DNA of 37,110 nt from Anaerolineales bacterium (GTDB lineage Bacteria > Chloroflexota > Anaerolineae > Anaerolineales > UBA11858), in contig JADHTJ010000032.1 in assembly GCA_016785015.1 (NCBI GenBank), forward strand, positions 1 to 37,110, in the 5' to 3' direction. The position numbers and the translations under genes are program-made. Shown here in pieces: positions 7,068 to 12,235 of the stretch (position 1 is the stretch's first letter; every line of letters begins with the position of its first letter). Under the pieces are notes generated by a model. It did no database searches. It was not told the DNA's origin and was given only the letters and a program-made list of their open reading frames with translations.

Positions 7068-7475
7068 ATTAAGAAAGTTCTTTTCCTATGTACGGGGAAT
7101 TCCTGTCGTTCGCAGATTGCAGAAGCTGTCGTCAACGCATTTCTGAACGATCAATGGCAGGCTTTTAGTGCGGGCACTGAGCCTGTCGGATATGTGCATC
7201 CCAATGCCCTTACCGCTTTGACCGAGATCGGCATCCAGCATGAGAGTAAATCCAAACACACCGATGATTTCCGGGATGTGGATTTCGATCTGGTAGTCAC
7301 AGTCTGCGATGACGCTGCCGAAAATTGCCCGGTCTGGTTAGGTAAAGGGGAACATGTTCACTTGGGCTTCCCCGACCCGGCCAAAGCAGAAGGAACAGAC
7401 TATGAAATCATGCAGGAATTCTGCAATGTGAGGGATAATATTGAAAAAAAAGTGATCTATTTGCTTGCTTCATAA
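7068..7475 (+). CDS. arsC: Arsenate reductase, thioredoxin-coupled, apparent ATT start
   Basis: Reduces arsenate to arsenite for export. It has the low-molecular-weight tyrosine phosphatase fold, about 135 residues. The P-loop CTGNSCR gives Cys8 and Arg14, and [10 protein letters not shown] gives Cys80 and Cys87. The three-Cys set with Cx6C matches the plasmid pI258 ArsC type (Cys10, 82, 89), which is recycled by thioredoxin. The frame is open from 7047, but no ATG, GTG or TTG occurs before the P-loop. The first Met-like start (GTG, 7194) would remove the active site. AAGGAG at 7055-7060 sits 7 bases before ATT at 7068, so I take ATT as the start; ATT at 7065 is the alternative. A mutated ATG or a sequencing error would look the same. 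acr3 follows by 28 bases. Confidence 0.85.
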
Positions 7476-7503
7476 AATTTACTTAGGAATGAAGGAGACA
7501 ACA

Positions 7504-8586
<1,083 letters not shown>

Positions 8587-8671
8587 AGGGTTTCCATAAC
8601 AACCATTTGACCGGGCTTCGAGAACCTCAGCCCTCTTCATTCTCTCAAAAGTTTAAGGAGGGATTCAAATA

Positions 8672-9223
8672 ATGGGATATATGTACATTCTCGAATGCAG
8701 CGATGGCAGCTATTACACTGGCAGCACAAAGCATCTTAAATTAAGGCTGGCACAGCACCAGGCTGGAGAAGGGGCGAACCATACCAAGAAACGATTACCG
8801 ATCAAGTTGGTGTATTACGAAGAATACGAACGCATTGATGATGCATTCAATAGAGAAAAGCAAGTTCAGGGCTGGAAGCGTAAGAAGAAAGAAGCGCTGA
8901 TCAATGGACAGCCCGAATTACTTCCTAAGCTGGCAATGGCCTATCGGGATATAGCCGGGCTTCGAGAGCCTCAGCCCTCGGATACTCAGCTGTCTGAGGC
9001 TCTCGCCTGTACTGAGCTTGTCGAAGTGAAGACAGCGACGCATAGCAGATGCCGGGCTTCGAAAACATTTCAACCAGCTCAATGCACAAAACTTCAGCCC
9101 TCGGATACTCAGCTGTCTGAGGCTCTCGCCTGTACTGAGCTTGTCGAAGTGAAGACAGCGACGCATAGCGGATGCCGGGCTCGAGAACCTCAGCCCTCGA
9201 AGAATGACGATTCCGAAGCCTGA
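8672..9223 (+). CDS. GIY-YIG endonuclease domain protein with repeat-encoded tail
   Basis: Residues 1-88 are a stand-alone GIY-YIG nuclease of the small YhbQ/UvrC-like type: YMYIL (3-7), YYTG (14-17), Arg25, and catalytic Glu62 in FNREKQ. Such domains cut DNA with a divalent metal. Family members usually end near residue 90-100. Here the frame continues 85 more residues into DNA repeats, giving two copies of a 29-residue unit (101-129 and 142-170) exactly 41 codons apart. The tail is low in recognisable structure and may be a passive by-product. A strong site (AAGGAGG) precedes the ATG. The 85-base gap after acr3 carries the same repeat motif. Nuclease identity is firm; the biological target is unknown. 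Confidence 0.85.
   Translation: MGYMYILECSDGSYYTGSTKHLKLRLAQHQAGEGANHTKKRLPIKLVYYEEYERIDDAFNREKQVQGWKRKKKEALINGQPELLPKLAMAYRDIAGLREPQPSDTQLSEALACTELVEVKTATHSRCRASKTFQPAQCTKLQPSDTQLSEALACTELVEVKTATHSGCRAREPQPSKNDDSEA
8956..9062. repeat. Palindromic repeat unit B1
   Basis: Contains a perfect 12-bp inverted repeat, CGAGAGCCTCAG (8963-8974) and CTGAGGCTCTCG (8994-9005). It is followed by ACTGAGCTTGTCGAAGT (9011-9027), a motif of a widespread bacterial dispersed repeat. The unit recurs 123 bp downstream almost unchanged. Confidence 0.85.
9094..9183. repeat. Palindromic repeat unit B2
   Basis: Near-identical copy of 8971-9060, offset by 123 bp (41 codons), so it keeps the reading frame of the nuclease tail. 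It has the same CAGCTGTCTGAGGCTCTCG arm and ACTGAGCTTGTCGAAGT motif (9134-9150). Confidence 0.85.
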
Positions 9224-9285
9224 AGCGATGCATTGAGCCCGTCGAAATGCTCTCCAAGGCGAGGCTGCCGCTTCCAACAATTAAA

Positions 9286-10575
9286 CTAACCATCACAACC
9301 ATCTGGACGTCCTTCTGAGTGCCAGCCACTGGAGTCAACATTCGCCATTCCGACTTCGCCAGCCTTAGTTATTGCTAACTTTACGCCTAGGGGGCCAAAG
9401 ATTTGTACGATAAATGTTGTGGCTGTGATTGTCGTGATAATCAGTGCTCCCAAAGCTTCGCCCTCTGGTCCCAGCGTCGCAAAGCGATTATTGGAAGCGA
9501 TAGCCAACCCAATAGCCACACCTGCTTGAGACAACAATCCTAACCCTAAGTTATTCTTGACCTGACGCTCAGCTTTGCCCACACTCCCCCCCACCCAGGC
9601 GCCTATATATTTTCCGGCACTGCGCAAAACGACATAGCCAATGCCCAATAACCCCATGGTGGGCAATAGGCTAATTTGGAACCGCGCCCCGACCAGGGCG
9701 AAAAAGAGTACATAAATGACTGGGCCCGCTTGCTCGATGGTGAAGCGGATACAACGGCCATTCTCTCCGTCGAAGTTGACCACCACAAAACCCATCACCA
9801 TTGTCGTCAGGATCAAAGAAAAGCCCAGGGCTTCCGAAAGACCCACACAAAGAAAGACAAATCCGATCGAGACGGCCATCGAGTCGTGCAGGCTCTTCAT
9901 TCGACGCAGAATCTCATTTAGCAAAAATCCCGCCAAAATTCCAACAATTAATGAACCGCCGATTTCGATCACCGGCATTTCGATAATCTGCACAAATGAT
10001 GGAATGCCTGTACCCGTTAATGCGCTCTCAGCAAAAGCTGCTGCAAGGCAATATAGCACCAAAGAAAAGGCATCGTCTAATCCTACGACTGCGATTAAGC
10101 TGGTAGTAAGCGGGCCTTTGGCATCGTATTCAGCCAGCACATCCACGGTCGCAGCCGGGGCAGTTGCCGAAGAAAGCGCCCCAAAGATCAATGCCGTATG
10201 TAGTGAGTTGGTGATGAAGTATATGCCCGTCGAAACCAACAGAAATGTCCCCAATGATTCAAACAGTAGAATAATTAGGATTGAACGCCCCTTCTTCCTT
10301 AGCTCGTCCAGGCGCAGGTGACTGCCCATATCAAAACCGATCAAACCCAGGGCAATCTCACTGATAAATGTCAAATCTTCTGTTAGCTCCAGGGGAACGA
10401 GATTCAAAAAGGAAGTGCCCAACAGCACTCCCATGATGATAAAACCAACTACTTGCGGCAAACCGAATCGTTGGAATAGCTTACTCCCCAAAAATGTCAG
10501 CGCGATAAGCAAACCGATAGTCGTAATGATATTTGGTTGGTAGTGGATACCCAAAAATTCAAGTATATTTTCCAT
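9286..10575 (-). CDS. Cation/proton antiporter (CPA2, KefB-like)
   Basis: About twelve hydrophobic segments over some 429 residues, matching the sodium/hydrogen exchanger domain of the CPA2 family, which exchanges K+ or Na+ for H+. Family-type segments include GFIIMGVLLGTSFL, the ion-site region SSATAPAATVD with VGLDDAFSL, and LLSQAGVAIGLA near the C-terminus. No RCK/TrkA-N domain follows, so it is the short form. The start is uncertain: ATG at 10575 gives a typical N-terminus, while a TTG at 10638 has a better AAGGAG 10 bases upstream, but its leader would be encoded in a small palindromic insert (10597-10650). The last residues are encoded in the 18-bp direct repeat at 9290-9307. Confidence 0.85.
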   Translation of the reverse strand: MENILEFLGIHYQPNIITTIGLLIALTFLGSKLFQRFGLPQVVGFIIMGVLLGTSFLNLVPLELTEDLTFISEIALGLIGFDMGSHLRLDELRKKGRSILIILLFESLGTFLLVSTGIYFITNSLHTALIFGALSSATAPAATVDVLAEYDAKGPLTTSLIAVVGLDDAFSLVLYCLAAAFAESALTGTGIPSFVQIIEMPVIEIGGSLIVGILAGFLLNEILRRMKSLHDSMAVSIGFVFLCVGLSEALGFSLILTTMVMGFVVVNFDGENGRCIRFTIEQAGPVIYVLFFALVGARFQISLLPTMGLLGIGYVVLRSAGKYIGAWVGGSVGKAERQVKNNLGLGLLSQAGVAIGLAIASNNRFATLGPEGEALGALIITTITATTFIVQIFGPLGVKLAITKAGEVGMANVDSSGWHSEGRPDGCDG

Positions 10576-10596
10576 TAAAATACTCAACCCTTCGCT

Positions 10597-10650
10597 GATT
10601 CTGTGGGAATTACCGTGAGACACCCCTTTCCACGTCAATTCCTAGCGGCT
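10597..10650 (+). mobile_element. MITE-like palindromic element, family 2, copy A
   Basis: A 54-bp element beginning GATTCTGTGGGAATTACCG and ending with ATTCCTAGCGGCT. It is flanked by direct repeats CCTTCGCT (10589-10596) and CCTTCGTT (10651-10658), 7 of 8 matching. Related copies lie at 16404-16459 and 19303-19342. Confidence 0.65.
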
Positions 10651-12129: not shown

Positions 12130-12235
12130 CTGTCTAATAGAGCCTCAGCCCTCAGATATTCAGCTGTCTGAGGCTCTCGAAGACAGCGGCTTTTTTGCAA
12201 GGCCGGGCTTCGAGAGCCTCAGCCCTCGGTCTGCT
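12130..12235. repeat. Solo copy of the palindromic repeat linked to the nuclease gene
   Basis: In the gap between moeA and the ACT gene. AGAGCCTCAG (12139-12148) pairs with CTGAGGCTCT (12167-12176). The spacer and arms match unit B1. A second start of the motif, CCGGGCTTCGAGAGCCTCAG, follows at 12203-12222. No nuclease gene is present, so this is a stand-alone copy. Confidence 0.8.

Follow-up and report, generated by a model that had tools for sequence, protein, structure and literature searches.

Small GIY-YIG nucleases and REP-like palindromes: a candidate partner enzyme for a large class of bacterial repeats

Contig JADHTJ010000032.1 of an Anaerolineales bacterium (Chloroflexota; assembly GCA_016785015.1), whose 37,110 nucleotides were analysed as a whole (the window), carries a small GIY-YIG nuclease gene that lies among copies of a short hairpin repeat. 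Comparison with related genes across bacteria makes it near certain that the pairing of nuclease and repeat is real, and gene and palindromes are probably two parts of one system resembling that of repetitive extragenic palindromes (REPs) and REP-associated tyrosine transposases (RAYTs), with a GIY-YIG nuclease in the place of the RAYT. The pairing recurs in many bacterial phyla, which suggests that a large class of bacterial palindromes has its long-missing partner enzyme in this nuclease family. A first-pass annotation of the window had read the locus as a REP/RAYT-like pairing with a different enzyme, a reading that the comparative sequence evidence supports.

Results

Two nuclease clades lie between copies of their own repeats

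The GIY-YIG genes came from samples of 60 and of 396 genomes of the class, together with 80 named contigs belonging to many phyla; the compared set held 190 loci, 186 of which hidden Markov model (HMM) scores place in clade A (YhbQ-like), clade C (that of the window's nuclease) or a sister clade, B. In a maximum-likelihood tree, A, B and C each form one side of a branch (Shimodaira-Hasegawa-like approximate likelihood ratio test, SH-aLRT, 91, 99 and 79), the window's clade C falling outside the YhbQ/UPF0213 clade A (SH-aLRT 79 and 91).

The same repeat stands on both flanks of 33 of 40 clade C genes and 68 of 93 clade B genes, against 1 of 56 in clade A and 11 of 501 random positions (Fisher p = 1e-17 for C and 8e-20 for B, each versus A; eleven clade C loci were added to this comparison after the HMM split). 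These repeats bear clade signatures, TGTCAT...ATC in B and GAG(TAG)...(TAT)CGA in C. An unbiased 6-mer scan places TGTCAT at the top of clade B flanks (80/93, 26% expected) and TATCGA (31/40) and GAGTAG (26/40) as the top two of clade C flanks, while nothing comparable to these tags came out of the clade A flanks. A hairpin of the type that matches the clade lies within 500 bp of 88/93 clade B and 35/40 clade C genes, and hairpins of those two types near only 14/56 and 13/56 clade A genes.

The repeat sequence also co-varies with the nuclease, which the first-pass annotation had proposed to check: tags and stem types both follow the protein clade. Stems pair in 257 of 378 cases of TGTCAT-NNN..N'N'N'-A[TC]C in clade B (39±6 when shuffled) and in 159 cases of NNNN-GAG..CGA-N'N'N'N' in clade C (20±4 when shuffled), stem covariation near clade A genes being close to chance. 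Nearest protein neighbours have a stem type in common in 43% versus 13% of cases in B and 51% versus 11% in C (0/5000 shuffles). Two candidates were set aside along the way: (i), a single universal motif by GIY-YIG genes, CTTCGN5CTCAG, is 18-fold enriched yet occurs at 6/56 loci, and the clade-specific tags were adopted instead; (ii), YhbQ-like proteins as the repeat partner are ruled out by their flanks, although a link at genome level, mostly phylogenetic, persists. In clade A, only L099 (G011:C20) has a repeat common to its two flanks, TCGTCACTCC..GGCATGACG.

An independent plasmid and replicon collection yielded clade B genes bracketed by repeats common to both flanks (score 31 or more) in Azospirillum lipoferum, Sinorhizobium meliloti pSymB, Neisseria gonorrhoeae, Rhizobium, Shinella, Sphingobium and Planktothrix; in Spirosoma and two others the flank score is low, yet palindromic repeats stand on at least one side. 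The A. lipoferum locus reads sufB, an inverted REP pair, the GIY-YIG gene, an inverted REP pair and sufC, with a gap of 617 bp between sufB and sufC, whereas the gene is absent and the gap is 92 bp in A. ramasamyi (96.5% identical to A. lipoferum around the locus) and 88 bp in A. oryzae. Both states of the REP-gene-REP unit thus exist in Azospirillum: the segment bracketed by the repeats was gained or lost.

Repeat copy number follows the matching nuclease

Genome-wide repeat counts came from pattern searches of the 396 genomes, with at least 5 copies per genome as threshold. The C-type pattern, TGAGTAGN{0,30}GTATCGA (TGAGTAG..GTATCGA), reaches it in 23/36 genomes with a clade C gene versus 18/360 without (odds ratio, OR, 34), and in 3/56 genomes with clade B only, level with those that have neither clade (15/304). 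The B-type pattern reaches it in 40/76 genomes with clade B versus 44/320 without (OR 7). When nuclease presence labels were permuted inside taxonomic families, the matching links held (C, p<5e-5; B, p=1.5e-4), the cross-links between B and C being much weaker (p 0.01 and 0.04). The first-pass annotation had staked its reading on homologues elsewhere keeping their flanking repeats and on the repeat being scarcer where the nuclease is missing; both are what we find in clades B and C.

Several points weigh against a mobilising role. The copy-number link is a correlation, and clade A genes are also associated with repeat copy number (OR 7-10), although this association is mostly lost on within-family permutation (p 0.045 and 0.07). 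Many genomes hold hundreds of repeats and no detectable B or C gene (G072, G155, G116 and others), among them G072 with 506 clade B-type and G116 with 285 clade C-type copies. In such genomes, a search for nuclease remnants returned mostly matches of clade A strength and one 61-codon fragment (G097); they may harbour orphan repeats, missed genes or another partner. At the Azospirillum locus the exact junctions and any target-site duplications are unreadable because the spacer has diverged, and nearest-neighbour DNA folding gives weak single hairpins. Finally, that the nuclease itself spreads the repeats is something we infer from sequence; we consider it likely all the same.

High-repeat genomes that have no gene are also what would be seen if the nuclease were a selfish, free-standing homing endonuclease that targets the hairpin and copies its gene into repeats dispersed by another agent. 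Homing endonucleases are known to use the GIY-YIG fold, and the genes do sit in repeats. Interruption of a target should however leave half-sites, and the gene instead has an intact hairpin or a complete dimer on each side, as in A. lipoferum, so that it does not interrupt its putative recognition site. This makes simple homing the less likely reading. One or few genes also stand among tens to hundreds of repeats, and the origin and spread of the repeats would go unexplained, though their number varies with nuclease presence inside families and their stems go with the protein clade. We regard homing as the main rival and as an improbable one.

The nuclease and repeats of the window

The small GIY-YIG gene that had been recognised in the window is indeed present, with the motif on both sides of it (Table 1). 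An A1 profile matches the open reading frame (ORF) over 8672-8935, and the first ~90 residues of the protein match the clade, including the GIY-YIG fold and the catalytic Tyr5, Tyr15, Arg25 and Glu62, which are invariant across clade C. Codons 95-183 (the last ~89) read through repeat DNA; because these codons are translated repeat, the functional nuclease is probably ~95 residues long. For annotation, this means that long low-complexity tails on such nucleases are translated repeats. Searches found no PHROG match pointing to a phage origin and no Y1 (HUH) match for the protein.

The AlphaFold model of the nuclease (mean pLDDT, predicted local distance difference test, 84) has its best PDB matches in the UPF0213 structures 1zg2 and 1ywl, with SLX1 folds next. 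GIY-YIG relatives cut structured DNA, which together with the SLX1 matches would suit a protective enzyme that processes or removes hairpins against cruciforms, tolerating the repeats rather than spreading them. Such a role leaves unexplained that the gene is bracketed by repeats, gained or lost jointly with them and matched to clade-specific tags, and we give it very little credence.

Hairpins in the window have the form stem-GAG-N5-CGA-stem'. Two stem kinds, GGGCT/AGCCC and GCTGTCT/AGACAGC, combine in inverted orientation as two imperfect hairpins, GGGCT-GAG-N5-CGA-AGCCC and GCTGTCT-GAG-N5-CGA-AGACAGC, of which the latter holds a nested hairpin; the repeat, described earlier as a palindrome, does have inverted symmetry without being a single palindrome. 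Copies of the pair's hairpins lie at 8613, 8957, 8989, 9112, 9177, 12163 and 12205, and a hairpin with a third stem at 9230. Two 88-bp units, 99% identical and 123 bp apart (8971-9058 and 9094-9181), bear out the near-identical units noted before, each of which had been credited with a 12-bp perfect inverted repeat. Only the first has one (8963-8974/8994-9005); the left arm of the second is split by the short hairpin at 9066-9086. The gene-less solo copy reported 3 kb away also stands, with copies at 12137-12225. A known non-coding RNA was set aside, there being no Rfam match at the gathering threshold.

Table 1. Nuclease gene and hairpin repeats in the window.
Feature	Position	Strand	Remark
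GIY-YIG nuclease ORF, clade C	8672..9223	+	PF01541 E 2e-17, residues 1-73
Catalytic domain of nuclease ORF	8672-8890	+	conserved to about 8935
Upstream hairpin GGGCT-GAG-GTTCT-CGA-AGCCC	8613..8633	-	
Downstream hairpin GGGCT-GAG-GCTCT-CGA-AGCCC, half of inverted pair	8957..8977	-	
Other pair half GCTGTCT-GAG-GCTCT-CG/A-AGACAGC, split by nested hairpin	8989..9036	+	uninterrupted in L014
Nested 23-bp hairpin CCTGTACTGAGCTTGTCGAAGTG within CGA of host hairpin	9006..9028	+	same insertion point in own-genome copies L015, L016
Nested hairpin TGCATTGAGCTGGTTGAAATG splitting left arm of second unit	9066..9086	-	
Second unit: copy of 8989-9036 hairpin	9112..9159	+	nested hairpin at 9129-9151
Decayed hairpin copy	9177..9196	-	1-bp deletion
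Hairpin GCATT-GAG-CCCGT-CGA-AATGC	9230..9250	+	
Gene-less solo copy: partial left hairpin and intact GCTGTCTGAGGCTCTCGAAGACAGC	12137..12187	+	GCTGTCTGAGGCTCTCGAAGACAGC at 12163-12187
Solo hairpin GGGCTGAGGCTCTCGAAGCCC	12205..12225	-	

Elsewhere in the window's own genome, where a count of palindrome copies had been called for, CTTCGN5CTCAG has 218 exact sites versus 3 for the reversed pattern, and BLAST places the repeat at 18 positions. Several of these copies hold other GAG..CGA hairpins of ~23-26 bp inserted within them: L014 has GCTGTCTTCGAGAGCCTCAGACAGC uninterrupted, and in L012, otherwise identical, CCTTCGACAAGCTCAGGGTAACAC separates GAGAGC from CTCAG. Hairpins of 23-26 bp nested in other hairpins occur in Kordia and Edaphobacter as well. 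Apart from uvrC and the window's gene, three small GIY-YIG genes are present in this genome, of which L003 and L004 are flanked by different repeats, and L001, which is YhbQ-like, has no repeat common to its two flanks.

Some own-genome copies of the hairpin pair (L012, L013, L014, L016 and L018, at ~1400-1650 in each) belong to an element of ~165-200 bp whose outer arms are GGAGTGGT..ACCACTCC; it may be a miniature inverted-repeat transposable element (MITE) carrying the pair. The repeats could be moved by an unrelated transposase, for instance the enzyme of such a MITE or a RAYT, with the nuclease as a passenger; one clade C subtype does have GTAG inside GAGTAG, like the RAYT tag. The window's repeats have neither GTAG nor the outer arms, and Di Nocera et al. 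(2013; PMC3733652) found no transposase beside REPs of the CGTC type. No transposase family recurs adjoining 39 clade C genes, Y1/RAYT genes not having been searched genome-wide, and no mobile gene family is common to clade B and C neighbourhoods, which share only common ATP-binding cassette (ABC) transporters, two-component genes and HsdM. With no transposase recurring next to the nuclease genes, we hold such a partner to be highly improbable.

Discussion

How the pairing described here relates to known systems can be stated point by point. With REPs, their paired form (REPIN) and the RAYT (TnpA-REP) it has in common short, high-copy extragenic hairpins with a one-end tag and frequent inverted pairs, a small gene between copies of these hairpins, covariation of repeat and enzyme clade, and orphan repeats. 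There are, however, key differences: (i), the RAYT is an HUH/Y1 (IS200/IS605) tyrosine transposase, whereas GIY-YIG proteins are hydrolytic nucleases; (ii), the 5' GTAG tag of RAYT repeats is replaced by [TC]GTC(AT) in clade B or by an internal GAG..CGA, partly GAGTAG..TATCGA, in clade C; (iii), single ~23-bp hairpins are nested in other hairpins here. Because enzyme superfamily and tag differ, the GIY-YIG system stands outside REP/RAYT.

The clade B repeats match the CGTC REPs, which include Neisseria dRS3 and Rickettsia RPE-4/6 and "apparently lack a dedicated transposase" (Di Nocera et al., 2013; PMC3733652), in their unpaired CGTC/TGTC tag at one end, a stem that opens with complementary AT, a CC(A) tail and an arrangement as inverted dimers. 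They also occur in genera named for these REPs in that study, Azospirillum, Sinorhizobium, Sphingobium and Neisseria, with the difference that clade B repeats bracket GIY-YIG genes; the window's clade C hairpins, on the other hand, have no TGTC/CGTC tag. REPs rank with the most common repeats in bacteria, and ever since its description in 2013 the CGTC superfamily has had no enzyme assigned to it, a gap to which a GIY-YIG partner of ~95 residues would give a directly testable answer. RepRanger (2025) mentions no enzyme, and open-access full text yielded no paper tying GIY-YIG proteins to REPs, a search that could miss a subscription paper.

Two other comparisons bear on the enzyme. UPF0213/YhbQ proteins (PDB 1zg2, 1ywl), the nearest solved structures, have the same fold, length and catalytic Tyr/Tyr/Arg/Glu, but form the separate clade A, whose genes are all but devoid of flanking repeats. 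Homing endonucleases of the I-TevI type are alike in their catalytic fold and in being mobile genes at a repeated site, yet here there is no intron or intein, the target is uninterrupted and intact repeats lie on both sides.

We hypothesize that the nuclease would bind the extruded hairpin, as single-stranded DNA or as a cruciform, and would recognise it by the conserved GAG/CGA tandem G.A step and, in clade B, also by the TGTC tag; a GAG/CGA step would stack as a tandem G.A mismatch. The enzyme would then cut at the hairpin base or at this step, and host repair of a break at one copy would seal in a released or copied hairpin, a dimer or the REP-gene-REP unit, preferentially at other copies. 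Such repair-sealed insertions could give rise to inverted pairs, nested ~23-bp insertions and dispersal, with orphan repeats outlasting the loss of the gene. On balance we favour the view that GIY-YIG nucleases are dedicated mobilisers of a superfamily of palindromes, the CGTC/TGTC REPs and GAG..CGA hairpins, by a hydrolytic, non-HUH route, and that they make up a second REP-type system, independently evolved, in many bacterial phyla. If so, a large GIY-YIG group now annotated by fold alone would gain a function, and REP-type mobility would have arisen in bacteria around two or more unrelated enzymes.

Further observations on the loci

The window's unit is flanked by an ACR3 arsenite efflux gene (7465-8586) and a convergent Na+/H+ antiporter gene (9286-10638). 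A clade B gene of the same genome (L004/L098, G000:C114) lies amid 13 or more CTTCGCTCNGCTCAG-like repeats, arrayed on both sides at roughly one per 77 bp. Type I HsdM/HsdS genes adjoin several clade C genes (L206, L207, L213, L215), and the Planktothrix clade B gene (L266) sits between an MmeI-like restriction-modification gene and the DISARM gene drmA. Some clade B genes contain in-frame stop codons (e.g. G184:C231, G249:C351, G298:C80), as expected for decaying selfish genes. At G149:C17:7480-8555 two clade C genes with equal profile scores form a tandem pair, 815 bp apart. C-type hairpins are nested in B-type REPs in G401 (Kordia, behind L145) and G397 (Edaphobacter, behind L173); in Kordia, the nesting lengthens the TGTCAT..ATCC repeats by ~23 bp.
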